A DNA stretch of 64,000 nt. Source: an uncultured Roseburia sp. (GTDB lineage Bacteria; Bacillota; Clostridia; Lachnospirales; Lachnospiraceae). The notes under the pieces were generated by a model. It saw nothing but the letters and a program-made list of their open reading frames with translations. It had not been told where the DNA came from and ran no database searches. The stretch spans positions 1 to 64,000 of the forward strand of contig CANPGM010000006.1 in assembly GCA_947573605.1 (NCBI GenBank). Direction: 5' to 3'. Below, in pieces: positions 385 to 57,900 of the stretch (position 1 is its first letter; each line of letters opens with the position of its first letter). The position numbers and the translations under genes were made by a program.

Positions 385-405
385 TCAAGTCGGAAGACTT
401 GAGGC
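382..405. repeat. 10-bp inverted repeat over the protease stop codon
   Basis: GCCTCAAGTC (382-391) and GACTTGAGGC (396-405) are exact complements with a GGAA loop. The protease stop codon lies within the left arm. No T-run follows on the minus strand, so it is not a canonical terminator. It could be a chance palindrome in the last codons. Confidence 0.4.
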
Positions 406-2199: not shown

Positions 2200-2294
2200 A
2201 TCAGAAATCGCCCTCTTACACCTGTTTTATTCTTTTTTCATGCAAATGGTGCCAAAGACTACAGAAACAATTGAATTTTCAGGCAATAAAATAA

Positions 2295-2314
2295 GGAAGG
2301 AAACGCTTCCTTCC
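2295..2314 (-). terminator. Rho-independent terminator after the FNT transporter
   Basis: GGAAGGAA (2295-2302) pairs with TTCCTTCC (2307-2314) across a 4-nt loop. On the minus strand it is followed by TTATTTTATT. It lies 11 bases beyond the transporter stop codon. Confidence 0.75.
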
Positions 2315-2325
2315 CTAAAAACAGC

Positions 2326-2937: not shown

Positions 2938-2974
2938 TTCTGATAAAGCCTGCCTTTCTCACGCTAATAGTTTT

Positions 2975-3003
2975 ATTATAGAATATTTTTAAAAGAAAGA
3001 CAA
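2975..3003 (-). promoter_or_regulatory. Sigma-A-type promoter of the FNT gene
   Basis: Minus strand: -35 TTGTCT (3003-2998), 17-nt spacer, -10 TATAAT (2980-2975). The start would fall about 30 nt upstream of the transporter ATG. Confidence 0.65.
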
Positions 3004-3103
3004 GACCTTCCTTTTTCACACATTCCCTTATCATTACATATACTACAAAAAACAAATATGTCAGAGTACGTATTTTATTGGGATCTGATATCTGGAGCAA
3101 TCT

Positions 3104-27572: not shown

Positions 27573-27587
27573 ATTACCCTCATTTCC

Positions 27588-27601
27588 GCCGCTCAAACGG
27601 C
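27588..27601 (-). repeat. Small intergenic hairpin before argJ (recurring motif, site 1)
   Basis: Minus strand AAAAAGCCG-TTTGAG-CGGC followed directly by GGAAATGAGGG, which contains the argJ ribosome binding site. Similar hairpin-plus-GGAAATGAGG units lie at 33164-33177 and 43157-43170. Confidence 0.45.
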
Positions 27602-27618
27602 TTTTTATTCTCTTTGGT

Positions 27619-28080
27619 TCATGGAATACAGCGATTCGTATTGTTCTCGTTCAGCACGCATTCATAATAATTCACGTCTTCACGAAACGTCCAGTTTAGC
27701 CCCCTCCAGAACCGGTTTCCGATTTCATTTTTTTGGAAAGCAATCAGATTAACCTTATTGATCCCCTCTTTTTTTAAAGCCTCCAGGCAGGCATTAACCA
27801 GGCGCTGTCCGATTCCGTTTTTGCGAAAGCCTTCCTCAACGCATACATGATAAAGACACCCTCTTCTTCCGTCGTGCCCGCAAAGGATGGCGCCGATTAA
27901 CCTGCCGCCGCATACGGCAGCCATACTGGTACCTGGATTTCGATCCAGAAACCGTCTGATCCCTTCTTTTGAATCGTCAAGGCTTCGAATTACAAACCCA
28001 TGAATCCCCGTCCAGAGACGGTACAATTCCTCATAATCATCAATGGTTAAAACACGGATTGCCGTTTCCGTTTCTTTCAT
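27619..28080 (-). CDS. GNAT family N-acetyltransferase in the arg operon
   Basis: Acetyl-CoA-dependent N-acetyltransferase, 153 aa. Motif A is clear: YHVCVEEGFRKNGIGQRLV, with the R/Q-x-x-G-x-G/A type acetyl-CoA loop as RKNGIG. Strand 4 (AAVCGGRLIGAILCG) and the C-terminal FWRGLNW motif are also present. It lies between argC and argJ, 30 bases from argC and 22 from the argJ stop-to-start interval. Its place suggests it may make acetylglutamate (an ArgA role) or act on a pathway intermediate, but general GNATs of the YpeA type also look like this, so substrate is open. Confidence 0.85.
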   Translation of the reverse strand: MKETETAIRVLTIDDYEELYRLWTGIHGFVIRSLDDSKEGIRRFLDRNPGTSMAAVCGGRLIGAILCGHDGRRGCLYHVCVEEGFRKNGIGQRLVNACLEALKKEGINKVNLIAFQKNEIGNRFWRGLNWTFREDVNYYECVLNENNTNRCIP

Positions 28081-29401: not shown

Positions 29402-29430
29402 TTGCAATCGAAAGCGGTCTGTTATATATT
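29402..29430 (+). promoter_or_regulatory. argG promoter
   Basis: -35 TTGCAA (29402-29407), 17-nt spacer, -10 TATATT (29425-29430). A small dyad TTCCGTA/TACGGAA (29445-29461) follows in the leader. The leader to the ATG at 29523 is about 85 nt. Confidence 0.65.
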
Positions 29431-29522
29431 GTTAAATAAGTGAATTCCGTATCATACGGAAGCTTGCATGTTTTTAAAAGGGTTGCTAAAATTTTATTTA
29501 TCTTATGGAAAGGATCAAAATC

Positions 29523-30737
29523 ATGAAGGAAAAAGTTGTACTGGCTTACTCCGGCGGACTTGATACTACCGCCATCATTCCCTGGCTAAAAGAAAACTAC
29601 GATTATGAGGTCATCTGCTGCTGTATTGACTGCGGCCAGGAGGAAGAGCTTAACGGATTAGAAGAACGCGCAAAGCTTTCCGGCGCTTCAAAATTGTACA
29701 TTGAAGACATCGTAGACGAATTCTGCGACGATTATATTATACCGTGCGTGCAGGCAAACGCCGTTTACGAAAATAAATATCTGCTCGGCACTTCTATGGC
29801 GCGCCCCGGCATAGCGAAAAAGCTGGTTGAAATCGCAAGAAAAGAAGGGGCTACCGCGATCTGCCACGGCGCAACCGGAAAAGGAAACGATCAGATCCGT
29901 TTTGAGCTCGGCATTAAAGCCCTTGCACCCGATCTTAAGATTATCGCGGCATGGCGCGACGATAAATGGACCATGCAGTCCCGTGAAGATGAAATCGCCT
30001 ACTGTAAAGCACACGGAATTGATCTTCCGTTCTCCGCCGATTCCAGCTACAGCCGCGACCGCAATCTCTGGCATATCAGTCACGAAGGACTTGAGCTGGA
30101 GGACCCTGCCTGCGAACCGAACTACGATCATCTTCTGGTACTTGGCGTTTCGCCCGAAAAAGCGCCGGAAGAAGGCGAATATGTAACAATGACCTTTGAA
30201 AAAGGCATTCCGACATCCGTAAACGGAAAACAAATGAAAGTATCGGATATTATCCGCGAGTTAAACCGTCTCGGCGGTAAACATGGAATCGGTATTGTCG
30301 ACATTGTAGAAAACCGCGTAGTAGGTATGAAATCACGAGGCGTCTATGAAACGCCGGGCGGAACGATTCTGATGGAAGCGCACCAGCAGCTTGAGGAACT
30401 TGTATTAGACCGCGCTACAATGGATGTGAAAAAGGACATGGGAAACAAGCTCGCCCAGATTGTGTATGAAGGAAAATGGTTTACGCCGCTGTGCGACGCG
30501 GTTAAGGCTTTTGTGACGTCTACGCAGGAATATGTGACCGGAGAAGTAAAATTTAAATTATATAAAGGGAATATCATTAAGGCAGGAACGGTTTCCCCAT
30601 ATTCTCTTTACAGTGAATCGCTTGCCAGCTTCACAACCGGCGACCTTTACGACCATCACGACGCGGAAGGCTTTATCACGCTGTTCGGTCTCCCATTAAA
30701 AGTTCGTGCAATGAAGATGCAGGAATCGGAAAAATAA
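29523..30737 (+). CDS. argG: Argininosuccinate synthase
   Basis: Joins citrulline and aspartate with ATP to form argininosuccinate; 404 aa, normal. The ATP loop is [14 protein letters not shown] at the N-terminus. Other family blocks include [12 protein letters not shown] and [13 protein letters not shown] start at 29523 (AAAGGA eight nt upstream), because the family begins just before the ATP loop; an upstream in-frame ATG at 29505 adds six residues. Single gene, divergent from the argC operon. No argH is seen in the window. Confidence 0.96.
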
Positions 30738-30792
30738 AAGCATTTTCCAAATATATCATCTCGTTTTTATTTTTTTGTTACTTACTTTCGGA

Positions 30793-30837
30793 CAGAGCCG
30801 CTCAGATACCGGGGTGCGTTCCGGTATCCGGCCTCTG
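30793..30837. terminator. Compound hairpin between argG and the MocR gene
   Basis: GATACCGG (30805-30812) pairs with CCGGTATC (30821-30828); outer arms CAGAG and CTCTG (30793-30797, 30833-30837) extend it. An AAAGAAAG/CTTTCTTT element with a T-rich tail follows at 30838-30862. The flanking genes converge here. Confidence 0.65.
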
Positions 30838-30861
30838 AAAGAAAGTGCTTTTCTTTCTTTA

Positions 30862-32280
30862 TTATAATTGATATTTCAGGATATCATCCAAAATATTTAA
30901 TCCTCTCTTTATTTCTTCCTCGTCCGGTTTGCCATATCCGAGCAGCAGAACCGGTTCCGGTTGTTTTTGTACGGGTTCGATATAATGCTGTGAGATTCCC
31001 ACTACCCTTACTCCCGCTTCCAGCGCCTGTTTACACAATGCGGATTCGTTTATTCCGGATGCGATTCTGACCGGAAGATGGAGCCCTGCATGATCCCCTC
31101 CGATTTCCGCTACCCATGCTTTTTTCCTTAATTCCCCTATTATAAAATCATGTTTTGATTTATATACTGCACGCATCCGGTTAAGATGTCTTCCGAAATG
31201 TCCTCCCTTCATAAATTCCCGTAAAACTTCCTGCTGGATTCTGGGAACAGTGGTGGAATAAAAGCCGCATTTTTTCCGATACACTTCCATTAATCTTTCC
31301 GGCAGAACCATATAACTGATACGTAATGAAGGCGCAATACTTTTCGAGAAAGTGCCCATATAAATTACGCTTCCGCTCTGGTCGATACTCTGCAATGACG
31401 GTATTGGCTTTCCCCTGTAACGGTATTCGCTGTCATGATCGTCCTCAATCAGAAAACGGCTTTCCTCCTCGGACGCCCAGTTTAACAGCTCCAGTCTCCT
31501 TTTAAACGTCATAACGGTTCCGAGCGGAAACTGATGCGACGGCATAACATAAACAATATCCGGTTTTCCGGTACGTATATTTAAAACCGCCGTCTCTTCT
31601 TTTATTACCGGCGCAGTCCATACCTCATAGCCCAGATTACAAAAAGTATGATAGGCCTGCAGATAGGTTGGATCGTCCATCAGAACCTTTTTTCCGCCTC
31701 CTAATATCTGTGCCAGTATTAGCTCTAAATATTCGTTTCCCGCGCCGATAATGAGCTCAGACGGGGTACAGTTGACGCCTCTCGCCTGGTGCAGATAATC
31801 CGCAATCACACATCGAAGTCCGTAATCGCCCTGACCGTCGCCGGGCAAAAGCAGTTCTTCTCTGTCCTCCGCCAATACGCCTCTGTAAATTTTTCTCCAG
31901 ATATTATAGGGAAAGTGCGCAGTATCCACCGCGTCAGGAGAAAAATCAACAGATACTTCTTTTAATACCTCTGCTTTCTCCTGTTTTACCGCTCTGTTTT
32001 TTGTCTCTCTCTGATTTAGCTGATACAACCCCCGGATATCACATACAAAAAAGCCCCTGCAGGCTTCGGATAGAATATATCCCTCTGCCAGGAGCTGTTC
32101 GTACGCCATTTCTACGGTACTTCTGCTTACCGTAAGCTGCTTTGCAAGCAATCTCGTGGAAGGCAGCTTTTCGCCCTCCGATATTCTTCCGCTGCAGATT
32201 TCATGTTTCAGATGTCTGTATATTTTTTCATAAAGGGGCGCTTTCGCGCCCCCCTGCAAGTCAATCATGATTTCATTCAT
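30862..32280 (-). CDS. MocR/GntR-family regulator with aminotransferase-like domain
   Basis: Transcription factor of the MocR subgroup, 472 aa. An N-terminal GntR winged helix (residues 1-75: KLPSTRLLAKQLTVSRSTVEMAYEQL) is joined by a linker to a fold-type I aminotransferase domain. The PLP lysine is in YMGTFSKSIAPSLR, and LIEDDHDSEYRYRG is typical. Such proteins usually sense PLP or amino acid derivatives (PdxR, GabR). It follows the DUF2225 gene by 15 bases and has no obvious ribosome binding site. No pdx or gab genes lie nearby, so the target is unknown. Confidence 0.9.
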   Translation of the reverse strand: MNEIMIDLQGGAKAPLYEKIYRHLKHEICSGRISEGEKLPSTRLLAKQLTVSRSTVEMAYEQLLAEGYILSEACRGFFVCDIRGLYQLNQRETKNRAVKQEKAEVLKEVSVDFSPDAVDTAHFPYNIWRKIYRGVLAEDREELLLPGDGQGDYGLRCVIADYLHQARGVNCTPSELIIGAGNEYLELILAQILGGGKKVLMDDPTYLQAYHTFCNLGYEVWTAPVIKEETAVLNIRTGKPDIVYVMPSHQFPLGTVMTFKRRLELLNWASEEESRFLIEDDHDSEYRYRGKPIPSLQSIDQSGSVIYMGTFSKSIAPSLRISYMVLPERLMEVYRKKCGFYSTTVPRIQQEVLREFMKGGHFGRHLNRMRAVYKSKHDFIIGELRKKAWVAEIGGDHAGLHLPVRIASGINESALCKQALEAGVRVVGISQHYIEPVQKQPEPVLLLGYGKPDEEEIKRGLNILDDILKYQL

Positions 32281-32295
32281 ATTTTTGCCAAACGT

Positions 32296-33147
32296 TTAAT
32301 TCCCGTTTCTGATTTCCGATACCACCTGTTCTTTTAAATCATACGCAAATTCTTTCATTTTCTTAGATGCAGAAACCGAAGTCAGGACTCTTGAAATACA
32401 CTTTGAAGCAATATCGTACTTTTTAAAATGCGCTGCCATTACGCCGAGCAGATAATCTAACGTATCCTGATCCATTCCGCACATCGGGAACATCTCGGAG
32501 GAAACCGCTTTCATAAATCCCTCGAACGCCTGACCGTAGAATAACTCCTGCTGTTCCGCCGCTTCTTTTCTCGCCGCCTCAGACGCAGGATCTTTCGGAT
32601 CTAACGTCTCCTGTTTTCCTCGGTACAGCCATGCGATTTTTAAACAGGTATACGCCATCTCGCTGTTTTTTCCCTTTTTCACCATTGTATTGTAAAGAGA
32701 CATTTTATAGCGTCCAATTGCCGTATCATAATCGCACACAGACGTCTGCACACTCTTCTCCGGCTTAAAATTTGCACTGACCTGTTCCTTTATCAGCTTA
32801 ATCTGCAACGAAGAAAGATGCTCAAAGTAACGAAGCATCGCCGTGTAACCGCAATGCGGGCAGGAAGCAACATCATACTTAATCGGATCAATGTACTGAA
32901 ACCGCGGACGCAGATCCTTATCCGGCTCTAAGCGCTTTGCTCTTCCGCTTTTAATTACCTTTGACTTAAAGCTCTGATCGCATACCGTACACCGGAAAGT
33001 CTTATCCAAAAGAAACGTATCCTCCGCCGGTATCTCTTCTTTCACTTCTTTACTGCCTGCTTTTTCTTCCTTCTTTTCTTCCTCAAAAAGGTTATCCGTA
33101 TCCTTTGCCTTCAAACCAAACTTTTCCAATCCCTCAAATAAATTCAT
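32296..33147 (-). CDS. DUF2225 zinc-ribbon protein
   Basis: Protein of 283 aa with the DUF2225 signature. Two CxxC pairs, in FRCTVCDQSF (about residue 52) and ASCPHCGYTAML (about 93), should bind one zinc ion. The rest is helical with repeat-like character (MAYTCLKIAWLYRGKQ), which suggests a TPR-like scaffold. The N-terminal 45 residues are Lys/Glu-rich. Function is not known; the family is common in Firmicutes. GAGAGGGCG precedes the ATG. It lies between glnS and MocR, all on the minus strand. Confidence 0.85.
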   Translation of the reverse strand: MNLFEGLEKFGLKAKDTDNLFEEEKKEEKAGSKEVKEEIPAEDTFLLDKTFRCTVCDQSFKSKVIKSGRAKRLEPDKDLRPRFQYIDPIKYDVASCPHCGYTAMLRYFEHLSSLQIKLIKEQVSANFKPEKSVQTSVCDYDTAIGRYKMSLYNTMVKKGKNSEMAYTCLKIAWLYRGKQETLDPKDPASEAARKEAAEQQELFYGQAFEGFMKAVSSEMFPMCGMDQDTLDYLLGVMAAHFKKYDIASKCISRVLTSVSASKKMKEFAYDLKEQVVSEIRNGN

Positions 33148-33163
33148 ATCGCCCTCTCATTCC

Positions 33164-33177
33164 GCCGCCTCTGCGGC
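33164..33177 (-). repeat. Small intergenic hairpin before the DUF2225 gene (recurring motif, site 2)
   Basis: Minus strand AGCCGC-AGAG-GCGGC (sharing bases at the loop) followed by GGAATGAGAGGGC, which includes the ribosome binding site. Compare 27588-27601 and 43157-43170. Confidence 0.45.
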
Positions 33178-33193
33178 TGTTTTCCCTTATGTT

Positions 33194-34864
33194 TTAATTG
33201 CCAAGCGGCAGCTTAAAGGAGCTTTTTAACGAAACAATTCGGTTAAATACCGGATGTTCCGGCGTGGAATCCTTTGCGTCTGCGCAGAAAAAGCCCTGTC
33301 TGACAAACTGGAAACTTTCGTAAGCTTTTACTCCCGCAAGATTCGATTCTACAATACAGTTTCTACATACGGTAAGTGAATTGGGGTTTAAGTTCAGACT
33401 GCCGTCCTCATTATAAACACCCTTTTCCTCATCTACAATATTCTCATAAAGACGAACTTCTGCAGGAATGCCGTGTTCGGCGGAAACCCATTGGATCGTC
33501 CCTTTTACCTTTCTGCCGTCCGGACTGTTGCCGCCGTACGACACCGGATCGTAAGTGCAGTGTATCTCCGTAACCTTTCCGCTTTCATCTTTTACAAAAC
33601 TGTTACAGGTTACAAAATACGCATTCATCAAACGCACTTCATTTCCCGGAAACATACGAAAATATTTTTTCGGCGGCTCTTCCATAAAGTCCTCACGATC
33701 GATATAAAGCTCCCTCGTAAACGGTATCTTTCGGCTGCCCAGCGATTCGTTTTCCAGATTGTTTACAACGTCTAAATATTCTGTCTTCCCCTTCGGGTAA
33801 TTGTCAATAATCACTTTAACCGGGTCAAGCACCGCCATCATACGCGGTTTTTTCAGCTTCAGATCCTCTCGAATACAATATTCCAACATCGCATAATCCA
33901 CAGAACTGTTCGCTTTTGCAACGCCGCACAGTTCCACAAACATCCGAATGGATTCCGGCGTAAAACCTCTTCTCCTGAGCGCCGAAATCGAAACAAGACG
34001 CGGATCATCCCACCCGTCAACCGTACCGTCCTCTACCAGACGCTTAATATAGCGTTTTCCGGTAACTACACTTGTAAGATACAATTTGGCAAACTCTATC
34101 TGTTTTGGCGGCTGCTCATATTCCAGCTCACGCACTACCCAGTCATACAACGGCCTGTGATCCTCAAACTCCAGCGTACAGATAGAATGCGTAATGCCTT
34201 CGATCGCATCCTCAATCGGATGCGCGAAATCATACATCGGATATATGCACCATTTATCTCCCGTTCTATGATGAGTCATATGCGCCACGCGGTAAATAAC
34301 CGGATCACGCATATTGATATTCGAAGACGTCATATCGATTTTCGCACGAAGTACTTTTTCCCCATCCGCATATCTGCCTTCTTTCATTTCCTCAAAGAGC
34401 TTTAAATTCTCTTCGACGCTGCGGTTTGAAAAAGGATCCTGTTTTCCCGGTTCGGTAAGCGTTCCGCGGTACTCCCTGATCTCTTCTGCTGATAAATCGG
34501 AAACATAAGCCTTCCCCTTTTTTATCAGCTTTACAGCCGCATCATACATCTGGTCGAAATAGTCGGAAGCAAAGAAAAGTCTGTCTTCCCAGTCGGCGCC
34601 AAGCCATTTAATATCCTCAATAATCGCCTCGACAAATTCTGATTTTTCTTTTGTCGGATTTGTATCGTCAAAACGGAGGTTGAATTTTCCGTTGTATTTC
34701 TGTGCAAGACCATAATTTAACAGCACGGACTTTGCATGACCGATATGGAGACAGCCGTTCGGTTCCGGCGGAAATCTGGTACGGACTTCTTCACAGTGCC
34801 CCTCTTCTATATCCTTATCAATAATCTGCTCGATAAAGTTTTTTGAAACATTTTCATTTTCCAT
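33194..34864 (-). CDS. glnS: Glutamine-tRNA ligase
   Basis: Class I synthetase that charges tRNA-Gln directly; 556 aa from the ATG at 34864, chosen because [18 protein letters not shown] is the family N-terminus and GGAGG lies upstream. The HIGH motif is in [16 protein letters not shown]. The KMSKS position reads [11 protein letters not shown], which departs from the proteobacterial MSKRKL form but keeps the active-site Lys-Arg pair. The C-terminal anticodon-binding beta barrels are complete. No T-box leader is seen upstream. Its presence suggests this organism need not make Gln-tRNA by amidation alone. Confidence 0.94.
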
Positions 34865-48557: not shown

Positions 48558-48846
48558 ATGAAAATGAATTTATCGAAAAAAAATGTAACGAAAGCCTGCC
48601 TTCTCTGCCTGCTTCTTACCGCTTCCTTTTTCCTCGGACGCGGTTCCGCCGCAATGGTGCAGGAATGTATCGGAACCTTTTCCGTCTCCGGCCAGGTCGA
48701 TAACTGGGGACTCGGCTTCGGCGAATCCGGCTCCGAAACACAGCCTACCGGAAATGTTTCGGCAGAAGAACTGAAAAAAAACAATGCCTATTATATCGGC
48801 GGAAAAGAAGAAAAAGTAATTTATCTGACTTTTGACTGCGGATATG
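48558..48846 (+). pseudogene. pdaA: 5' fragment of a pdaA-like polysaccharide deacetylase
   Basis: PdaA-type enzymes remove acetyl groups from muramic acid and so start delta-lactam formation in spore cortex. Only the N-terminal ~96 residues remain: signal peptide (ACLLCLLLTASFFLGRG), then QVDNWGLGFGESG, EELKKNNAYYIGG and VIYLTFDCGY, the beginning of the NodB catalytic domain. After FDCGY the frame leaves the family and ends as VKVKTRRHYSDRNV. The zinc-binding and catalytic residues are gone, so it cannot be active. The break at about 48846 marks an old insertion or deletion. Confidence 0.8.
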
Positions 48847-49063
48847 TAAAGGTAAAAACGCGACGGCATTACTCTGATAGAAATGTATAAATTCCTGATT
48901 TGGTTATTGAATTAAATAATGATCTCAAAACGGGTTTCCTCATAGGTAATCAATCATTTCTTTCTATAAGGAAGATGAAGGCCTGTCCTCTGGCGTTCAT
49001 CTATATTCATAGTAACATCATTATTTCTCTTTTGCAACCCATTTTTTTCTTTTTCCTATAATT
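48847..49063. other. Unassigned scar sequence between gene fragments
   Basis: About 217 bases with stops in all frames. It contains no recognisable gene or repeat and separates the pdaA fragment from the antitoxin fragment. Confidence 0.5.
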
Positions 49064-49240
49064 GCAATCAATCTTTTTGTAAAAGCAGTTTTACGCGAAA
49101 ACCGTATTCCTTTTGAGATTACCCAAATTTCCGACCCAATCTACTCTGAAGCAAACATGGCCTATGTAAAGAAATCCGTTCACGAATTAAAAACTGGAAA
49201 AGGCGTTGCCCATGAATTAATTGAGGTAGACAATGAGTGA
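49064..49240 (+). pseudogene. 3' fragment of a RelB/DinJ-family antitoxin
   Basis: A plus-strand frame of 58 codons reads AINLFVKAVLRENRIPFEIT at its start, the DinJ/RelB core that normally follows the ribbon-helix-helix N-terminus, and ends with KTGKGVAHELIEVDNE and a stop. The N-terminal DNA-binding part is missing: similarity stops abruptly at 49064. Its stop overlaps the toxin ATG in AATGAGTGA, the usual antitoxin-toxin coupling. Too truncated to repress. Confidence 0.75.
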
Positions 49241-49289
49241 AAAAATATGGTCTGACGATGCTTGGGAGGATTACCTTTACTGGCAAACA
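49233..49289 (+). pseudogene. 5' fragment of a YoeB-family toxin, cut by the element boundary
   Basis: The first 19 codons read MSEKIWSDDAWEDYLYWQT, the characteristic YoeB mRNA-interferase start. At 49290 the frame runs into sequence that is the antisense of the serine recombinase C-terminus. The catalytic residues (Glu, Arg, His) are all downstream and missing. This is the clearest mark of where the element inserted. Confidence 0.8.
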
Positions 49290-49296
49290 TATCTAA
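49284..49296. other. Probable attachment junction
   Basis: Similarity to yoeB ends near 49289 and the recombinase stop codon is at 49293. The crossover dinucleotide of the serine recombinase should lie in or beside this interval. The matching right junction would carry the rest of yoeB. Confidence 0.35.
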
Positions 49297-50876
49297 TTTT
49301 CCTGATCCGGTTTTTTAAATCGGAATACGATTTCTATCCGGTTATCCTCGTAGACATTGATTCTTTCTATCAGGTTAACGACGACTTCCCGCGACAGCTC
49401 CGTGATCTCCCTGTATTCCAGAAAATGGTCCAGCCATCTCTGATATTCGGTCATATACTGCGCAGTATTCTCTTTTCTCTTCTGCAGCTCGTTGATCCGT
49501 AAATTGATCTGGTTCTTTTTCTTTTCATACTCCGTTTTAAAAATGCTGAAATCTTCTTCGTCTATCACGCCCGTAGAAAGGTTTACCACCATTTTTTTAT
49601 AACTGTTTAACAGGCTGCCAAGCTGCGTCATAAGCTTTGATTTCTCAGCGTTAATCTGATCCGTCTCTCTCTTCCTGCTTAATTTCTGCAGATCCATATT
49701 TTTCAGCGCATCCGATACGTTGTCCTGGATTGCCGCAAGAACCAATTCTTCCAGTTCGCGCTCCCATACCAGATGTTGCGTGCAGTAATTTACGCCTATC
49801 CTGGCGTAGGTAGAGCAGCGTAAAATTCTTCCGGCCTTTCTTTTGGAACGCGTCAGCCCTCTCCCGCATTCTCCGCAGAAAACCATTCCCGCAAACACGT
49901 TAAGATTTTTGCTGCAGTCCATCGGCTTGTATCGCATTTTGATGAACCGCTGTACCAGCTCATAATCTTCTATTGTAATAATCGGTTCATGCGTATGCTC
50001 GCAGCGAATCCATTCCTCTTTCGGAACCGCCACGTATTTGTCCATATTATACGCCAGCTTCTCCGTCCGGTGCTGCACCATATTTCCGATATACGCCTCG
50101 TTTTCGTTGACCAATATCTTTTTTACGGTACTGTAAGTCCAATAATCCGTTTTGTCCAGCTTATTATTATTGCTGTAATTACAGCCTTCCGCCCTTTTGT
50201 ATACGGACGGGCACGGGATATGTTCCTGATTCAGCATATGTACGATTTGCATGACATTTTTTCCGCCGATAAATTCAGCGTAGATCCGCCTGACTACGTC
50301 CGCGGCAACCGGGTCTATCACAAGCCTGCTCTTATCTTTTTCGTCTTTTTTATAGCCGTATGGAGCAAACGAACCGATAAACTCTCCCCTGTCCGCTTTT
50401 ACCTTAAATGCAGCGCGTATATTTTTTGAGGTCTCCATTGAGTAGTTGTCGTTCATTACAACCTTTAAAGGGATTTCCATCGATGAAATCATCCCGTTAA
50501 AATCGATATGATCGACCACCGCAATATACCGAAGATGTTTTATTACGAACGTCTCCTTGAACAGTTTGATTGTTTCCGCGTGTTCCCTGCCCAGCCTGGC
50601 AAGGCTTTTTGTAATAATGCAGTCAATCAGCCCTCTGTCCACATCTTCCATCATCTGAATGTATCCGTCGCGCTTGTAATTAAGGCCTGTATGTCCGTCG
50701 TCGATATATACCTCGGCCTCCGTCAGGTCATTGCTCTCACTGATATACTTTCTGCAGATTGCAAGCTGGTTTTCTATGCTTTCCGACACTTCCCTCTTTT
50801 TCGTATAGTCCTCATCCGAAAGCCGGCAGTAAATTGCCGTCCTGTATCTGTCAAGTCTCCTGGCATTCATATTCAA
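49293..50876 (-). CDS. Large serine recombinase (site-specific integrase)
   Basis: Phage- or ICE-type serine integrase, 527 aa. The resolvase domain (about 10-155) has AIYCRLSDED with the nucleophilic Ser, IDDGHTGLNYKRDGYIQMM, and ITKSLARLGREH. The recombinase domain follows (about 175-290), then a zinc ribbon with FCGECGRGLTRSKRK and CSTYARIGVNYC, and a coiled coil (about 390-480). All parts are complete, so it is probably active. It lies at the left edge of the element, reading toward the junction. Confidence 0.93.
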   Translation of the reverse strand: MNMNARRLDRYRTAIYCRLSDEDYTKKREVSESIENQLAICRKYISESNDLTEAEVYIDDGHTGLNYKRDGYIQMMEDVDRGLIDCIITKSLARLGREHAETIKLFKETFVIKHLRYIAVVDHIDFNGMISSMEIPLKVVMNDNYSMETSKNIRAAFKVKADRGEFIGSFAPYGYKKDEKDKSRLVIDPVAADVVRRIYAEFIGGKNVMQIVHMLNQEHIPCPSVYKRAEGCNYSNNNKLDKTDYWTYSTVKKILVNENEAYIGNMVQHRTEKLAYNMDKYVAVPKEEWIRCEHTHEPIITIEDYELVQRFIKMRYKPMDCSKNLNVFAGMVFCGECGRGLTRSKRKAGRILRCSTYARIGVNYCTQHLVWERELEELVLAAIQDNVSDALKNMDLQKLSRKRETDQINAEKSKLMTQLGSLLNSYKKMVVNLSTGVIDEEDFSIFKTEYEKKKNQINLRINELQKRKENTAQYMTEYQRWLDHFLEYREITELSREVVVNLIERINVYEDNRIEIVFRFKKPDQEN

Positions 50877-50891
50877 TCCTCCCCGTAACTA

Positions 50892-51053
50892 TTATAATAA
50901 ATCCTTTGGAGAATTACATGCTTCCAGCTCTAAACTTTTTTTCTTTGTTTCAGCCATTCTTTCAATACACACTTTTAAGTCCTCATTGCCATATTGAATC
51001 ACAACATGGTATTCAGACTGCAGCGCCATCTGTTTTTTTCTTCCTTCTCCCAT
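50892..51053 (-). CDS. Small protein upstream of the serine recombinase
   Basis: About 53 aa from the ATG at 51053, which has AGGA six nt upstream; a longer frame to 51164 starts with no support. The sequence includes ALQSEYHVVIQYGNEDLKV and a Lys/Glu-rich end. Not recognised. It ends 15 bases before the recombinase start, so the two are likely co-transcribed; it may be a directionality or regulatory factor, but nothing in the sequence proves this. Confidence 0.5.
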   Translation of the reverse strand: MGEGRKKQMALQSEYHVVIQYGNEDLKVCIERMAETKKKSLELEACNSPKDLL

Positions 51054-51155
51054 AATGTTTCCTGGAACCTCCGGTTCTTCCCGCCTTTCCTGATTTTTTA
51101 TAACGTAAAATATTAACAGAAGAAAATGATATCCGGACAATGGCCATTCTGCGTA

Positions 51156-51184
51156 TTGACACACAGCTTTTCAAATGCTATGCT
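51156..51184 (+). promoter_or_regulatory. Consensus-like promoter of a small RNA
   Basis: -35 TTGACA (51156-51161, exact), 17-nt spacer, -10 TATGCT (51179-51184). No gene follows on this strand, only a terminator 43-93 bases on. Confidence 0.65.
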
Positions 51185-51190
51185 TTATAC

Positions 51191-51277
51191 GCACCGGCCC
51201 CTTGTTGGTCCGTGTATGTTATCAAGAGAAAGCAGCCTTCAAAGGGTCCAAGCTTAGCTGGCTGCTTTCTTTTTTTG
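51191..51277 (+). ncRNA. Candidate small RNA of about 87 nt, divergent from the recombinase operon
   Basis: A near-consensus promoter and a textbook terminator bracket a segment with no credible ORF (only 13 codons without ribosome binding site). The 5' part contains CCCCTTGTTGGTCC and the terminator loop contains AAAGGGTCCAAG, so the RNA has short self-complementary pieces (CCCTT with AAGGG). It reads away from the recombinase leader and toward the 3' end of the DUF3791/DUF3990 operon, where it could act antisense in trans or cis. Confidence 0.5.
51227..51277 (+). terminator. Strong terminator of the small RNA
   Basis: AGAAAGCAGCC (51227-51237) pairs exactly with GGCTGCTTTCT (51260-51270) and is followed by TTTTTTG. 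The T-run is on the plus strand; on the minus strand the tail is much weaker, though it may also stop the operon ending at 51337. Confidence 0.8.
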
Positions 51278-51336
51278 TTCTTTCTTAACTATAATACAGA
51301 TTCTACATGTTATATACTATTATACTCGGCTGATAT

Positions 51337-51576
51337 TCATTCCCCCTTTGTCTCCTGCATACCGCTATTTTTGCCCGAATATTCCATCTGAAGCTCATCT
51401 GCCAGCCAGGCGTCGCTCATACAATGCATATCGGATACGCCTTCGCTGACCAAACGGTAAACCTCAGAGTGATAGAATAGTTTCAACGCCGTATCCAGTG
51501 TGATTCCGGTTTTTTTTGCAAATTCCCCAATTACACGGGAATACTTTTTCTGCAGCAAAATTGGGTTGGCATTCAT
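51337..51576 (-). CDS. DUF3791-type small protein (downstream partner)
   Basis: 79 aa; the best-conserved part is KYSRVIGEFAKKTGITLDTALKLFYHSEVY followed by EGVSDMHCMSDAWLADELQ. I know this as a small partner regularly found beside DUF3990 proteins in Lachnospiraceae. No signal peptide or membrane helix; probably all-helical. Its ATG overlaps the DUF3990 stop by four bases (ATGA type), so the two are coupled. Last gene of the seven-gene minus-strand operon. Confidence 0.7.
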   Translation of the reverse strand: MNANPILLQKKYSRVIGEFAKKTGITLDTALKLFYHSEVYRLVSEGVSDMHCMSDAWLADELQMEYSGKNSGMQETKGE

Positions 51577-52043
51577 ATACGCTCGCTCCCTTCAAAGTTC
51601 AGCTTCTCCAGCGCTGCTTCCGTTCGGAAACAAAACTGCATGTTTGGTCTTTCATAGCGCAATCGATTAATGGCTTCTATCTTGTTGATCAAACCATCGA
51701 AATAAAGTTCAACTGTATTAAATACTTTATCATTGGCGACGCCACCTGTTACAATATCATAATCTGAAGTGTCGTTCCCACTACGACAGATTAAAATGAA
51801 ATTTAACCAATCCTCAGAATAGGAATCAAACTTTAAGACCTTAAGCTCATTGCAACAGCTTTGATCAAAGTTATACCGGGAAATAATTCCTTCTTTGCCC
51901 CGTCGTGTAAATCTGCCACACCATTTTTCCGCTTGTTCACGAATAGGCGTAGTGTAAAATCCTCTTCCAAAGTCTACATTTGGGCGGGAATGTACAATGT
52001 CAGGCTTAACAATTTCCAAAAAAGAACTGTGATATAATATCAT
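51573..52043 (-). CDS. DUF3990 protein, probable ADP-ribosyltransferase-fold
   Basis: 156 aa. The N-terminus ILYHSSFLEIVKPDI, then NVDFGRGFYTTPIREQAEKW, is the DUF3990 signature; DUF3990 has been linked to the ADP-ribosyltransferase fold, with His in the first strand, Tyr in FYTT and a Glu in NTVELYFDGL as possible H-Y-E residues. If active it would modify a protein, RNA or DNA target in the cytosol. It overlaps the genes on both sides by four bases. The two small flanking proteins are candidates for antitoxin or chaperone. Function is inferred. Confidence 0.7.
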   Translation of the reverse strand: MILYHSSFLEIVKPDIVHSRPNVDFGRGFYTTPIREQAEKWCGRFTRRGKEGIISRYNFDQSCCNELKVLKFDSYSEDWLNFILICRSGNDTSDYDIVTGGVANDKVFNTVELYFDGLINKIEAINRLRYERPNMQFCFRTEAALEKLNFEGSERI

Positions 52044-52279
52044 ACTTCCACACCTCTTTCTTTCATTACTTCCAGAATATCATCCATAATATAATCCTTG
52101 CTTTGGGTGTGTAAAACCTCATACTCAGGGACAATATAACCATACAGGATATCGCTTTTCTCTGCCAATGCTTCATAAACACGTTCTGCATTCACATTAA
52201 GCCTCCGGGCGATATTTTCAATACAAAATACGGAAAATTCCAATTCCACGGCATTTCTGATTTTTCCGTCATTGGACAT
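52040..52279 (-). CDS. DUF3791-type small protein (upstream partner)
   Basis: 79 aa. EFSVFCIENIARRLNVNAERVYEAL is followed by YIVPEYEVLHTQSKDYIMDDI, the DUF3791 signature. GAGGAGGCATAAAAC precedes the ATG. Its stop overlaps the DUF3990 start by four bases. Acidic and helical, which fits an inhibitor of the DUF3990 product; no experiment is known to me for this. Confidence 0.7.
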   Translation of the reverse strand: MSNDGKIRNAVELEFSVFCIENIARRLNVNAERVYEALAEKSDILYGYIVPEYEVLHTQSKDYIMDDILEVMKERGVEV

Positions 52280-52303
52280 GTTTTATGCCTCCTCACTTTA
52301 TTT

Positions 52304-52552
52304 TTAATCAGGGCTTTCAGGATTATTGCTCCCCTTTGTCTCGTCATAAGCAAAAAGGAAAGAGTTTTCAATAATCTTTCGGTATTCCATATTCCTGACT
52401 TCCAGCAGCAATTTTCTCTCCTCCGCCTTCAGCCCGGCGTACTGCTCGTCCTGCTCCGCCGCATCCAGATCATAATCCATCTCGCGCAGTATCTCCCCTG
52501 TCTTTTCCGCAATTTCAATCAGTCTCAGGTAAATCTCATCTTTCCGCTCCAT
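52304..52552 (-). CDS. Small acidic coiled-coil protein after the kinase
   Basis: Not recognised; 82 aa, acidic, helical: MERKDEIYLRLIEIAEKTGE then KAEERKLLLEVRNMEYRKII. It starts three bases after the HipA-like kinase stop, and its ribosome binding site (GGAG) lies in the kinase's last codons, within the 39-bp repeat. The short ORF beginning MERRYMEDEGF after the Fic gene has the same first codons, so this gene's start was probably duplicated when the kinase unit was inserted. Possible antitoxin by size and place. Confidence 0.65.
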   Translation of the reverse strand: MERKDEIYLRLIEIAEKTGEILREMDYDLDAAEQDEQYAGLKAEERKLLLEVRNMEYRKIIENSFLFAYDETKGSNNPESPD

Positions 52553-52581
52553 CCCTTACTCCAGTTCCGCTTCCCAGTCCG
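52543..52581. repeat. 39-bp direct repeat, copy A (end of the HipA-like kinase gene)
   Basis: Exact copy of 53552-53590, 1,009 bp away. It encodes the last residues DWEAELE, the stop, and the GGAG plus ATGGAGCGGA start region of the next gene. Confidence 0.9.
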
Positions 52582-53539
52582 TGGAAATACATGATTTTTC
52601 ATGCTGCATAAGCGCAGGCTCTAAAAGGTACTTCTGTCTTAATTCCATTCCTTTCAGATAAAACAGCTTCCTGTCCCGGCTGCAGACGGAAACATCTCCA
52701 TACGTCTCCGGTATTTGTTCTATAAATTCTTTTATCAACGGCATGTTTTTCCTGATAAGAGGCACATTTTTCTTTAGCGCACGTTTTAAATCCGGATTTT
52801 TTACCTTCAGGAGCTTTTCTGCTGAAAGAATTTTATCGCCCAGCTTATACACTGTGCCCGTCCTTACAGAACTCATCTGCATCCTTTCGCCGTCGCTCAT
52901 TATTTCCCTGATTTTTTCATCGCTGTACTTATTTGAAAAAGCGGCTCCATTGTCATACACCGGCGCCATTCTGTACCGTTGGTTCTCATAAAGCAGTCCC
53001 CAGTTTCCGTTATTTCTGTCATTATTGTTGATTAAGATATCAACAACCGCGCAATTCCAGAAATGCTCCTTCAAATCAGGTATCCTTGACAGGATTGGAT
53101 TGTAACGGAACTGAATCATCAGTTCTTCCAAATCAACCGTGTAGGACGAGGTAGAATGCAGGCTTGTTTCAAGCTGCCTTGACAGCTCTTCATTATATAT
53201 ATTTTTAAGCGTCCTGATTTCGCGTAACGCGCCTTCTTTTCTGCAAAAATCCCTGCAGGCTACTACCAGCTTGCGGTTCCTTATACCAAGCCTCGTTTCG
53301 TGCGCGTCGTACCCCAGAATAGAATAAATGTGGCTGCCGATGTACTCGGATAAAGGCGACGTCATATAAGATGCAAGCTCTCCCCTCATTCCTTTTGTAC
53401 TTTTCGGATACTTGATAATCCAATTTTCCCCTTCAAAAGAAATCCCTTCCTTATCGCCTGCAAGACCGCCATAGGTACCGTTCCTTTCATTTGTCCTGCA
53501 GACATCAAAATCATATATTTTTACCGGCAAATCCTTCAT
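52556..53539 (-). CDS. HipA/CtkA-like Ser/Thr kinase
   Basis: Protein kinase-like effector of 327 aa. I start at 53539 because MKDLPVKIYDFDVCRTNERN is the family start and the longer frame is out-of-frame Fic sequence. Visible: glycine-rich GTYGGLAGDKEGI, the ATP lysine in WIIKYPKSTKG, catalytic INNNDRNNGNWGLL (Asp and Asn about 210-216), and metal-binding MAPVYDNGAAFSN. This matches the CtkA branch of HipA-like kinases, known in one case as a secreted pro-inflammatory kinase; HipA itself phosphorylates GltX. The C-terminus ends in DWEAELE, identical to the Fic protein. No HipB-like DNA-binding partner is nearby. Confidence 0.8.
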   Translation of the reverse strand: MKDLPVKIYDFDVCRTNERNGTYGGLAGDKEGISFEGENWIIKYPKSTKGMRGELASYMTSPLSEYIGSHIYSILGYDAHETRLGIRNRKLVVACRDFCRKEGALREIRTLKNIYNEELSRQLETSLHSTSSYTVDLEELMIQFRYNPILSRIPDLKEHFWNCAVVDILINNNDRNNGNWGLLYENQRYRMAPVYDNGAAFSNKYSDEKIREIMSDGERMQMSSVRTGTVYKLGDKILSAEKLLKVKNPDLKRALKKNVPLIRKNMPLIKEFIEQIPETYGDVSVCSRDRKLFYLKGMELRQKYLLEPALMQHEKSCISTDWEAELE

Positions 53540-53547
53540 CCTCCATA
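53528..53547. repeat. 20-bp direct repeat, copy at the kinase start
   Basis: Exact copy of 54360-54379. On the minus strand it covers TATGGAGGATGAAGGATTTG, that is the ribosome binding site, ATG and codons for MKDL. Confidence 0.85.
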
Positions 53548-53551
53548 TATC

Positions 53552-53590
53552 TCCGCTCCATCCCTTACTCCAGTTCCGCTTCCCAGTCCG
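53552..53590. repeat. 39-bp direct repeat, copy B (end of the Fic gene)
   Basis: Exact copy of 52543-52581. Encodes DWEAELE, the stop and the following GGAG/ATGGAGCGGA. Confidence 0.9.
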
Positions 53591-54371
53591 GATAACTTTG
53601 AAATTTCCGTTCCTCGCCAATAAGAAAATCCAGCTCCTTTTCTTCAAGACCTGCCACAATCTCCTTAAAATCCGCATCATTTCCCGTCGTATGAAAGTTT
53701 TCTAATGCAGAAATATAATCATTCCTCATTTCAACAGGGATACTGATCGGCGCATAACCATGTTTCATGAGCTGGTAGTTCATAATCATGCGGCTTGTCC
53801 TGCCATTCCCATCCATGAAAGGATGAAGCGAAACAAACCTCAGATGCGTCCAACAGGCCAGTTCAATTGCATTTACCCCGCTCTCCGGCATATTACAGAT
53901 ATTTTTTTTTTCAGACAGATCTTCATAAAATTCTTTCATCAGTCCCGGCAGCCTTAAAGGATCAGGACATTCATGGGCGGAACCCTGAATATATACCTGG
54001 CGTTCCCTGTAAGTCCCGCCCGGTAAGATGCGTTCCATCAGTATTTTATGAATCCCCAGAATGATCTTTTCATTGAGATCGCTTCCATTCCTGATCTGGT
54101 GCACGGCATATTCAAACGCTTTTTTATGGTTAATCTGTTCGTATATCTCCCTCAGGTTTTTATTCGCAGGCGTCGTATTCCGGAGCAGCAGATTCCCTGT
54201 TTCTTCTAATGTCAGGGAGTTTCCTTCAATTGAAGTAGAATCATAGGTGTACCTGACAATAAAACGCTCTTCATAACTGCTGACAAATTCCGGGTTCTGT
54301 TTTAAAAATTTCCGGTTCTTCAGATACTGCTTTTTTTTTCGTTCCAACTGTTCCGAATACAAATCCTTCAT
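53565..54371 (-). CDS. Fic-domain protein (AMPylase-like), self-inhibited type
   Basis: Transfers AMP or another nucleotide part to Ser/Thr/Tyr of a target protein; 268 aa from the ATG at 54371. The active-site loop is HPFMDGNGRTSR (His near residue 184), fully conserved. An N-terminal inhibitory motif S-x-x-x-E-G is present in STSIEGN (about residues 45-51), which marks class II Fic proteins that block their own ATP site, so a separate antitoxin is not strictly needed. FLKQNPEFVSSYEERFIVRY is the helical N-terminus. The start overlaps the upstream 80-aa gene by four bases. The end DWEAELE is shared with the kinase. Confidence 0.92.
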   Translation of the reverse strand: MKDLYSEQLERKKKQYLKNRKFLKQNPEFVSSYEERFIVRYTYDSTSIEGNSLTLEETGNLLLRNTTPANKNLREIYEQINHKKAFEYAVHQIRNGSDLNEKIILGIHKILMERILPGGTYRERQVYIQGSAHECPDPLRLPGLMKEFYEDLSEKKNICNMPESGVNAIELACWTHLRFVSLHPFMDGNGRTSRMIMNYQLMKHGYAPISIPVEMRNDYISALENFHTTGNDADFKEIVAGLEEKELDFLIGEERKFQSYPDWEAELE

Positions 54372-54379
54372 CCTCCATA
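54360..54379. repeat. 20-bp direct repeat, copy at the Fic start
   Basis: Exact copy of 53528-53547. Here it also encodes the last residues of the 80-aa protein in another frame. Confidence 0.85.
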
Positions 54380-54610
54380 ATAGCGCATACACAATCTGTC
54401 AAACTGCTCTTTTGTGATAATTCCCTCCGGTACAAGAAATTTTGCTATATTTTCCAGAGAGTCGCAAAGATTTGTATAGCCCCAGTCCTCCTCGGCGTCG
54501 GCGCGCTCCAAATCGTCTATGATATTTTTTACAAGCTGCGGCAGACAATCGTAAAAATCGTCAATTTTTACGCTGTTATCCGTCCAGCGGTAACTTTCCA
54601 GTGTTTTCAC
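54368..54610 (-). CDS. Small protein upstream of Fic
   Basis: About 80 aa from a GTG at 54610 (AGGAGG ten nt upstream); the longer frame to 54646 has no such site. The sequence has KIDDFYDCLPQLVKNIIDDL, then EDWGYTNLCDSLENIAKFLVPEGIITKEQFDRLC. Acidic and helical, not recognised as a named family. It overlaps the Fic start by four bases and opens the operon, so it may be a partner or regulator. Confidence 0.65.
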   Translation of the reverse strand: MKTLESYRWTDNSVKIDDFYDCLPQLVKNIIDDLERADAEEDWGYTNLCDSLENIAKFLVPEGIITKEQFDRLCMRYYGG

Positions 54611-54785
54611 AGGGCAATGCCTCCTATCTCCTTTAACCAGACGCATTCGTTCCGGCCTGAACCGTCAGATATTTCCTGACAGATTCTATCTTATCACAGA
54701 AACGGCATTTTATATATCCTGTTTTTTATTATTATTTCTATATCATATTTACCCTGTGCATTCTATACTGCTTTTCCTACATGTC
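54611..54785. other. Upstream region of the Fic operon
   Basis: AT-rich. A small dyad GTCAG/CTGAC lies near 54661-54680. No clear promoter; TAAGAT and TAGAAT on the minus strand near 54690 are weak -10 candidates. Confidence 0.3.
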
Positions 54786-54926
54786 ATGAGTATCGAAACA
54801 TACGAAACAATGGCAGAGACTGCCGCAACAGACGCTGCGATTTCTGAATCAGAGGCAGAGTTCGCACAGGACGGAAAACTCTACGACGTGCGGGAAGCTC
54901 TTGCTTCTATAAGGAGAAAATTATAA
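54786..54926 (+). pseudogene. Antitoxin-like C-terminal fragment
   Basis: A plus-strand frame of 46 codons opposite to all neighbours. It starts MSIETYETMAETAATDAAIS and ends DGKLYDVREALASIRRKL, which resembles the C-terminal part of RelB/Phd-like antitoxins. No ribosome binding site is seen, and the DNA-binding N-terminus is missing. No toxin gene follows. Confidence 0.4.
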
Positions 54927-54965
54927 AACGGCCGCTTTTACCCTGCCCTGAGAGTTCTTTTTACA

Positions 54966-57900
54966 TCACCGCATAAACCTGTCATAGAACCTCTGCAGCG
55001 CGTCCGCGCTCCTCGTATTTCCGATTCCGTTCACCCGGATAAATTCCTGCATTTCAAGTACTTCCTCATGCGTGAACGTAAACACTGCCTCCGGCGTATG
55101 ATTCCTTAAGTTCTCAAACGCGTCCTCCAGTACCGCCCGGTATTCAGGGTCTTTCTTCCAGATGGAGTTCTCCTCCAGCCCTCCCTTTTCATAAGGCAGG
55201 TTATAATATTTCTCATTGATAAAACGCGTCGTTCCCGGACGGTCCGTCCGGTCTGAGGTCGTCTGGATGATTTTCGGCGACGTATCTACGATATGCACCG
55301 TGATTTGTTTCTCCGAGCTGTTCCCGCCGCTGTCAACCGCTTTGTATGTCTCCGTCACGTTCCCGCTGTGCCGGAACTGGGTAAAATCGGTTTCCTGATA
55401 GTCCGTTACATAAAACGAGTTTTCCGCCCGTTTCCCCGGCGCGATTTCTCCGTCCTCAAGGTCAAACGCCGCCGCTTCGCTTAACAGCTCCTCCTCCGTC
55501 ACAAACCCGCTCTGCGCCTGCTCCAGCGTATAGTACAGGTCCTTTGCTTTAATTCCCGGGCAGTCGTCCCATACCGCGTAAAGCGTAATGACGGCCCCGT
55601 CTTCTTCCGACAGGTTTAAGATTTCCTCCTCATCCTGATACGCGGCCTCCGTGTCGTCCGCGGAAGTTCCCCAGCCTTTGAACGCGCTGTCCCCGTATTC
55701 GTTTTCCCTGCGGTATTCATTCGGCGGAAGCGGAAGCTCCTGTCCGTAATAAACCGTAATTTCCGGCATGTCCCCTTCCGTGGCCCCGTTCCTGTCAAAC
55801 CGGACGGTGTAGCGGTTCCTTGCATAATAAAGGTTTATGGCAAGCGTCCCGTCCGCGCGTATCGCCGCTTCCTCCGCCGCGGCTCCGTCCGCTTCTCCAT
55901 GAGAATAAGTAAACCCGGTCCAGCTTTTCTTTATATCTGCAAACTTCACTGTGCTGCCGACAAGTCCGTTCCCGGTTCCGGTCTCTTCCAGCGTATAGCC
56001 GGTTCCGTCCACATTCATCCGGTAGTGGCTGACCGTATAGCCCGCCGCATCCGGCTCCCACTGCGCGTAAAGCGTAACCTTCCCGCCGTCCTCCGCAGTC
56101 AGATTCTTTACGGACGCGCCGTCCGCATAGGACGTCCCGCTTCCGTCCGCCGCCGTGTTCCAACCGGTAAACCGTTCGCCCTGCTTTCCGTAAGTGTTGT
56201 CTGTCAGGTTATACTCCGTGTCATACCGGCATTCCATGTCCTCCATGCTTCCGGTATCTGCCCCGTTCCCGTCGAACCCGATCCGGTAGCTGACAGGTTC
56301 CGCCCATGCAGTCACAGCAACGTCCTCCTCCGGCATAGTAAAGACAAGCGGCAGCTCCTCCGATTCCCGGTCTCCGGTCCATTTCCACCATTTGTAGCCC
56401 GTTTCCGTCTCTAATTCCGCTCCAAGCGTGACGGTATCCCCGGCATAATATTCCCCGGCCCCGTCGACAGAGGAAATTCCTTTTTCTTTTACCACGCTTA
56501 CAGTATATGTATCCCCTTCCGCGGCGTTCGCCGTCAGCGTCAGGTTCCCCGCAGGCATGGGAAATGTGTAGGTCTTCTCCGCCGTATAAACAAGCTGGAA
56601 CCTTCCCGCGGGCTTCGTCCAGTTGATCCATCGGTAATGCGCCATGACCGCGGCGTCAATCGTGACTTCCTCCCCTGCATAATAGCTCCCGGCCCCGCTG
56701 ACCGACGAAATACCTGTTCCTGCCTTCAGCGTCAGCGTATATTTTGAGACCGCCTTCCACTGTGCGTAAAGCGTAATCGTTTCCCCCGCTTTTACCGTGG
56801 AATTGAACTTCGTAAATTCGTAGCGGTCCGGATAGGAAATCCCGCTTCCATCCGCCTTTGTGTTCCAGCCGGTAAATTCATACCCGTTCCGGGAATAAGT
56901 ATTCGCGGGCAGCCGGTACGGGGCCTCCGGCTTTAACAGGTACCCACGCTCCTCCATGCTACCGTCCGCGCCGTTTCCGTCAAACCTTATGCTGTAGTCC
57001 TGTTCCTTCCAGACCGCATACATGATATAGTCCGTGCCCCCGGAAGGGTCCGGGTCGCCCCAGACGTTCTCTTTCCCGTACTGGAACGTCCACGACCAGT
57101 TGAAGATATACGTCTTTGTCGGATAATAAAGCGCCCAGTTTTCCTTTGTATTCGCCTCTGTTCCGCCCCACGGCTGCCAGTTCGGGGAATACATCGTAAT
57201 CCGCTTGTCATCCGAAAGCCGCCTTACCGTATACCCGACAAACGCGTAGCCCTTCCTGGTAAAGCCGCAGTCCGTCGGCGTCATGGCGTCCAGAAAGGTA
57301 AACGTCTCCGGCTCCATACTCCCCGTTACTGAAAACGATTCCGTCTCTTCCTTCCCGCGGTACTCGATGTGGTATTCCTTCGGCTTCCACTGCGCGTACA
57401 GTGTGAAGGAATCCGAAAAGCTTCCGTTGGTAAACCAGCTTTTGTCAATCATATAGCTTTTATCCGGATAATACTTCTTCCACTTTTCTTTGTCCATCCC
57501 GGCCTCGCCGGCAGCCGGCTGCCAGCCGTCTGTCGTGTAAATCATGCGGTCCGAGTTGCGGACCAGCGTATAGCCGTCGAAGGTAAAGCCCTTATAGGTA
57601 AAGGCGCATTCCTTCGGGCGGAACGTCCGGCTGAACCGGATCTGCTGCGGCTCCATGCTGCCGGAGGTAATCTCCCCTGTGGCCGCAATATAGCCGGAAG
57701 GAATGGTAACGTTGCTGTTATAGGAAATCGTACTGTATGCGCCTGCCGCCGGAGCGTCCACGGTAAAGGTACAGGTGTGCTTCTCCGTTGACGCTGTGTT
57801 CCGTGTGTAAAGAAAACGCATGGTATCCACGTCCACTTCGGGACGTCCGTCCAATGTATTCTCTTTCATTTTTCCCTCGATAAGATAATTTTTGTTCATC

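Follow-up and report, generated by a model that had tools for sequence, protein, structure and literature searches.

A Fic gene and a CtkA/HipA-like kinase gene share identical ends in an operon of a Roseburia integrative conjugative element, possibly through capture of the Fic gene

The tfs3 integrative conjugative element (ICE) of Helicobacter pylori encodes three proteins, CtkA, Fic and PZ39, that are not obviously related and have 27 C-terminal residues in common (66.7% for CtkA against PZ39 and 77.8% against Fic; PMC5536186). By the same account, ctkA may sit where other strains have pz39 or, in rare cases, fic; CtkA lacking its last 23 residues loses its effect on IL-8; and relatives of these proteins elsewhere are without the tail or have a different one. 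The tail has been discussed both as a secretion signal and as a recombination site (PMC5536186; PMC5785829). Here we describe an operon in which a Fic gene and a CtkA/HipA-like kinase gene share identical DNA at both their ends. The operon was found in a 64,000-nucleotide stretch of DNA, hereafter the window, from an uncultured Roseburia sp. of the family Lachnospiraceae (positions 1 to 64,000, forward strand, of contig CANPGM010000006.1 in GenBank assembly GCA_947573605.1).

The likeness to tfs3 (PMC5536186) lies in the company of a CtkA-type kinase and a Fic protein on an ICE with transfer genes, near a recombinase gene, and in a C-terminal stretch that relatives lack or carry in divergent form. 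In tfs3, however, the genes vary between strains and the 27-residue tail ends in a basic cluster, whereas in the window the two genes stand in tandem in one operon, share seven residues (DWEAELE) with exact identity of the DNA, and have a start region in common as well. The window's tail has no such basic cluster and is acidic (net charge -5 over the last 22 residues). The C-termini of two further ICE proteins are just as acidic (net -5 and -6) but do not carry the motif. A second comparison is with the toxin-antitoxin operons of HipA-family kinases (HipT, HipI, HipJ, HipM and others; PMC8262856, whose main text does not contain the word CtkA). There, too, a short kinase is encoded beside a small gene, as is the case in relatives of the window's kinase; the partner described below differs, in that it matched no known family in our searches and is separated from its kinase by the Fic gene.

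The operon is encoded on the minus strand and reads, from its upstream end: a 92-aa gene (54368..54646), repeat A, the Fic gene (53565..54362 from its TTG start; from position 54371 if an ATG is used), repeat B, the tetranucleotide GATA (53548..53551), repeat A again, the kinase gene (52556..53530 from TTG; from 53539 with ATG), repeat B again, an 82-aa gene (52304..52552), and the DUF3791, DUF3990 and DUF3791-like genes. Repeat A is an exact 20-bp sequence (TATGGAGGATGAAGGATTTG) present at 54360-54379 and 53528-53547, with a spacing of 832 bp. Repeat B is an exact 39-bp sequence (minus strand CGGACTGGGAAGCGGAACTGGAGTAAGGGATGGAGCGGA) present at 53552-53590 and 52543-52581; its copies lie 1009 bp apart and delimit the kinase unit, as the initial annotation of this DNA had stated. 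A and B are the only exact direct repeats of at least 18 bp in the window, the next-longest within 5 kb being 17 bp, and identity at all 59 repeat bases suggests a recent event. For comparison, 7 of 108 other loci had exact repeats of at least 18 bp at a distance of 100-3000; so did 10 of 18 longer loci, some overlapping the 108, at a distance of 150-4000. Many of these background repeats, of which only part were classified, lie within one repetitive gene, between similar genes or in short intergenic stretches. Two resemble those of the window. In G362, another genome of the family (see below), the start region of a gene is duplicated; and two genes of the same ICE have an exact 20-bp start in common (MKHIIEA; L116 2416-2435 and 3196-3215), probably a conserved leader.

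Inspection of the shared ends suggests what each contributes. The most plausible reading of repeat A is that it holds the last part of the 92-aa gene, a Shine-Dalgarno (SD) sequence (GGAGG), nine nucleotides and a TTG start codon; its first copy would serve Fic and its second the kinase. The initial annotation had seen in this repeat an ATG and a common N-terminal MKDL. The exact repeat holds, but MKDL is probably not a shared N-terminus: counted from the ATG, all 11 aligned Fic homologues are three residues shorter, and the TTG removes that gap in every one of them (a two-residue gap further on persists). A TTG start fits Fic. A TTG start for the kinase is compatible with its relatives, whose starts vary, without being decisive. 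Repeat B comprises the last seven codons of Fic (first copy) or of the kinase (second copy), the stop codon, an SD sequence and the start of the 82-aa gene. Of the duplication of that gene's start, previously thought to have left a 16-codon remnant behind Fic, only 10 bp (ATGGAGCGGA) can be retained; the 16-codon open reading frame (ORF) after Fic (MERRYMEDEGFAGKNI) is no remnant; it extends across the second copy of repeat A and enters the kinase gene.

DWEAELE is the C-terminus of both proteins. Among 1431 pairs of window ORFs, one other pair shares three C-terminal residues and none shares more; among 5799 pairs in 104 other loci, two share four (both in the G362 array) and none five. DWEAELE is found in no further ORF of the contig, nor in any of 11 Fic and 12 kinase relatives, which have tails of 5 to 18 and 1 to 40 residues, respectively. 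It is thus not an ancestral tail of either family. Kinase relatives whose genes lie beside those of a relaxase or MobC, or on a plasmid with type IV secretion, have basic tails (net +5, +6 and +4; L085 4198-5244, L089 3928-4899 and L065 3001-3999); the tails of other relatives are neutral or short.

The repeats were then sought elsewhere. A 37-bp part of repeat B (up to 3 mismatches) matched only the window's own genome among 62 genomes of the genus. An exact degenerate scan for DWEAELE followed by a stop found eight stretches in 84,980 genomes, all in distant taxa to judge by the record titles (Natronomonas, two; Actinomycetota; Acidimicrobiales; Planctomycetota, two; Vibrionales; Verrucomicrobium), and none in viral contigs. 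With up to 2 mismatches, repeat A has eight matches, spread over 8 of 61 further genomes of the genus, once with one mismatch and seven times with two; a backwards control pattern gave one place in the same scan. The 5.5-kb locus has no near match among plasmids. Within these sets, then, the repeats are absent at the DNA level around homologous genes, and a widespread swapping cassette with these ends was rejected, the 39-bp end having appeared in no other genome searched. An integron cassette was rejected on other grounds: of 11 inverted-repeat pairs of at least 14 bp in 50500-56500, none lies at a copy of A or B except one 14-bp, 86% pair that touches one B copy and has its other arm 2.4 kb off. 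Insertion by a transposon or insertion sequence was also rejected, since the repeat-bounded units hold just the Fic or the kinase gene and lack such inverted repeats.

Class II Fic proteins are recognised by the motif HxFx[DE]GNGRxxR together with an N-terminal [ST]xxxE[GN]. The window's Fic protein (PF02661, E 8.5e-21; PADLOC PDC-S04, E 1.2e-45; profile matches to FICD in the PDB) has HPFMDGNGRTSR and STSIEG, in a region conserved in the alignment of its homologues, and by these motifs it is predicted to belong to class II. It has the Fic core and N-terminal motif of FICD and of the PADLOC candidate PDC-S04; unlike them, it carries another gene's start signal and tail. The kinase matches HipA_C (PF07804, E 5.3e-9, scoring 36.5 bits where the cut-off is 30.5) and PADLOC PDC-M03A, and its closest solved relative is H. 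pylori CtkA (3akj; profile match E 1.7e-66). An alignment of 13 sequences has 28 invariant columns, among them N172, D174, R175, N179 and D196. The domain score and the CtkA match place it among the HipA/CtkA-like kinases, with Ser/Thr kinase activity as the prediction. The window's two proteins share no family, confirming the earlier view that the two genes are unrelated.

The neighbourhoods of homologues suggest which of the two was there before the other. Homologues of the 92-aa protein were detected in 4 of 396 other family genomes (single-sequence search, E of at most 0.001), in all four directly upstream of a kinase homologue. Of 11 further genomes of the family whose kinase scores E 1e-40 or below, eight have the partner ORF directly upstream and one has it downstream, while in two it was not found; these counts are partly circular, as the profile includes nine of those genomes. 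The partner is also upstream of a 45% identical kinase homologue on the Treponema plasmid pTB1. A search of 13 Fic loci (48 kb) gave no match to the kinase profile and a single marginal one to the partner profile (E 0.033), inside a 307-aa ORF. The 92-aa gene and the kinase gene thus form a conserved pair, split in the window by Fic, and the 92-aa product is probably the antitoxin of the kinase. The protein itself matches nothing in Pfam, NCBIfam, PADLOC or PHROG, and its structure model is poor (pLDDT 60). As regards HipBST operons, which combine a HipS-like partner with HipB, the best PDB match of the partner profile is no better than E 0.069, HipS not having been compared directly, and none of the operon's eight proteins, small and large, matched a helix-turn-helix family at E of at most 0.001.

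From these observations we infer a direction for the rearrangement. Since homologues of the 92-aa gene adjoin the kinase upstream in four of four genomes, Fic appears to be the newcomer, and since it is here preceded by the conserved partner of the kinase, it appears to have split an older pair. This reverses the direction assumed by the initial annotation, in which the kinase was the inserted cassette. The 92-aa gene and the kinase would represent the old core, and the Fic gene would have been captured between them by a duplicative, homology-poor event. The A-kinase-B unit may have been tandemly duplicated and the interior of the first kinase then replaced; a template switch may have occurred; or unequal crossing-over may have joined A-Fic-B and A-kinase-B alleles. 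Each of these routes would yield the observed sequence. Fic would now sit in the kinase's shell, with the kinase's SD and TTG in front of it and seven codons, a stop and the next gene's start behind it, giving the order 92aa-A-Fic-B-GATA-A-kinase-B-82aa, in which every reading frame is open. A related product is seen in the G362 genome (G362:C162), where a Fic gene (Pfam E 2e-16) is followed by a 68-bp, 96% identical copy of a kinase start region, an MNT and HEPN pair, and, in full, the HipA-like kinase gene to which that start belongs (below the Pfam cut-offs; kinase profile E 1e-12). The two copies, at L133 13200-13267 and 14104-14171, flank the MNT-HEPN pair; this arrangement lends support to capture.

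Of 12 kinase loci, 11 were screened for C-terminal motifs shared between unrelated neighbours, by comparison of the kinase tail with the remaining ORFs of the locus; these were from 10 family genomes and from pTB1, a 4-kb contig being excluded. Two loci, pTB1 and the G362 array, were positive; in the other nine nothing was judged comparable (best scores 20-37, against 46 for pTB1). On pTB1 (Treponema bryantii, L118/L119), the pair formed by the kinase and ArdC takes fourth place among 3655 C-terminal pairs. KGRK occurs in the last eight residues of 4 of 86 ORFs, namely the kinase, an ArdC-like, a RadC-like and a 629-aa protein (record 26630-27757, 29407-31296, 31297-33807 and 65807-66808), and nowhere else in the 86 (shuffle mean 0.014, maximum 2 in 2000 shuffles). 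The bodies of these proteins are not clearly related, the lowest E being 0.001 with filters off (ArdC-like against RadC-like) and those of the kinase against the others at least 0.1. The plasmid carries type IV secretion genes, the kinase gene lying two small genes ahead of a TraG/VirB4 gene. In the G362 array (L133/L134, G362:C162:1-28018), [LIV]x[VA]F is the ending of 7 ORFs out of 35 (shuffle mean 0.05, at most 2 in 5000 shuffles), and it is found in none of 368 ORFs in 17 other loci. The seven fall into four homology groups (HipA-like kinases, four ORFs; Fic; HEPN; and one of unknown type); examples are L133 4642-5604, 5649-6107, 7449-8390, 9344-10426, 10475-11614 and 14174-14989. A 320-aa protein of G362 has no homologue in 60 relatives. 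The narrower pattern [LV][NDK][AV]F occurs nine times in the 35 ORFs, seven times at the extreme C-terminus and twice within the first 12 residues, in two further ORFs with LNAF near the N-terminus. Codons differ between the DVF and AF forms, indicating selection at the protein level, and the motif looks like a terminal tag. The motifs of both loci were picked after inspection, and the tail sharing there is to be taken as a lead, not as proof. In the literature searched, no paper combines CtkA, HipA and kinase, and titles and abstract openings show no further case of a shared tail.

Taken together, the data incline us, with little better than even confidence, towards the view that a duplicative event brought Fic into the slot of the kinase; in a secondary role, the DWEAELE tail may also be an element-specific tag. 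Several points weigh against capture. The partner's place is not fixed, as it lies downstream of the kinase in L091, in L003 (a genus locus) and in L106 and L107, two contigs of a viral collection (in which kinase relatives number none by single-sequence search and two by profile). No intermediate, 92aa-kinase-82aa or 92aa-Fic-82aa, was seen in searches covering one genome per species; no homologue of the 82-aa gene was found from which to tell which effector originally preceded it; and every route has to create three junctions anew (A-Fic, Fic-B and B-A). Furthermore, tfs3, pTB1 and G362 suggest that selection may act on shared tails, which would then be more than by-products. An alternative that we regard as possible but decidedly less probable is exchange at fixed ends: ICE alleles with either the kinase or Fic between A and B would have been joined by unequal crossing-over, and DWEAELE would be a C-terminal tag specific to the element, such as a secretion signal for the ICE transfer machine or a binding or degradation motif. 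In its favour are the tfs3 precedent, with its variable ctkA/pz39/fic position, shared tail, loss of the IL-8 effect on truncation and proposed role in recombination (PMC5536186), and the endings in pTB1 and G362. Yet only two of 11 kinase loci share tails, with motifs selected after looking; DWEAELE is unlike the basic KRRR and KGRK tails, and acidic ends lacking it exist in the same ICE; and the window's ends recur in no other genome searched.

Capture also has to be set against the initial annotation, which took the kinase unit for an exchangeable cassette inserted between Fic and the 82-aa gene with duplication of a 39-bp target. What survives of it is that some rearrangement produced the common ends, and end-sharing between CtkA and Fic has indeed been published (PMC5536186); exchange at the kinase's slot is possible, while the searches turned up no dedicated system for swapping that uses these ends. 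As an account of the window, insertion of the kinase is improbable: the 39-bp copies do bound the kinase unit exactly, and the G362 insertion is likewise flanked by a duplicated start of the downstream gene, but repeat A is left unexplained and the kinase's conserved partner stranded on the far side of Fic. Least credible, indeed very unlikely, is that chance, a common leader or an assembly artefact is responsible. The MKHIIEA starts are a second 20-bp common gene start in this ICE; an exact 39 bp, however, is far beyond chance given a next repeat of 17 bp, an ordinary read is longer than either repeat, and some molecule should contain the B-GATA-A junction. Capture into the kinase's slot accordingly stays the preferred reading.

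Downstream of the repeats, the 82-aa gene is an orphan: it matched only itself in 62 genus and 397 family genomes, and its product has no match in phages. The best of five AF2 models (pLDDT 83, pTM 0.63; the other four, 53-67) is a two-helix hairpin predicted from the single sequence. The DUF3791 (52040..52279), DUF3990 (51573..52043) and DUF3791-like (51337..51576; under the Pfam cut-off) genes match PDC-M13A, B and C of PADLOC in the same order as in that candidate system; here they belong to one tight operon with the Fic-kinase group. PDC-S04, PDC-M03A and PDC-M13 are candidate defence families by name alone, and the seven genes would make up a stack of toxin-antitoxin-like or defence modules. 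The operon adjoins a large serine recombinase gene (49293..50876, minus strand; Recombinase, Resolvase, Zn_ribbon_recom and DUF4368), and the same contig encodes, at 68-86 kb, TrbL, a TraG/VirB4-like P-loop ATPase, a T2SSE ATPase, a topoisomerase, SSB and ArdC. The element is an ICE, as called from its genes and not from attachment sites. Near the recombinase gene, an ORF at 48558-48890 runs to VIYLTFDCGY and then into unrelated-looking sequence, with no Pfam match; by its motif it looks like a polysaccharide deacetylase gene cut by the element. A crude motif scan did not find the other half in the contig. Short frames at 49100-49300, also near the recombinase gene, resemble parts of a YefM-YoeB antitoxin and toxin.

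The window offers an example of end-sharing between a CtkA/HipA-like kinase and Fic for which tfs3 is the precedent, and pTB1 and G362 may be two new parallels; together, precedent and parallels keep alive the idea of tagged, accumulating effectors. In its general form, which we advance as a doubtful proposal, mobile elements of distant bacteria would give intracellular enzymes that are unrelated to one another, among them CtkA-like kinases, Fic, HEPN and ArdC-like proteins, a short terminal motif specific to the element (KGRK in pTB1, [LIV]x[VA]F in G362, DWEAELE in the window, a KRRR-ending tail in tfs3). Newcomers would gain start signal and tail by recombination within the operon, and one machine, be it a transfer channel, a protease or a common partner, would handle them all. 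The G362 array and plasmid pTB1 provide further, independent places in which tagging can be tested. The occurrence of unrelated toxin-like enzymes with identical ends illustrates how an operon on a mobile element can gain genes while every reading frame stays open; if the tails are functional, such elements would be tagging diverse effectors for one handling machine, as has been argued for CtkA of H. pylori.

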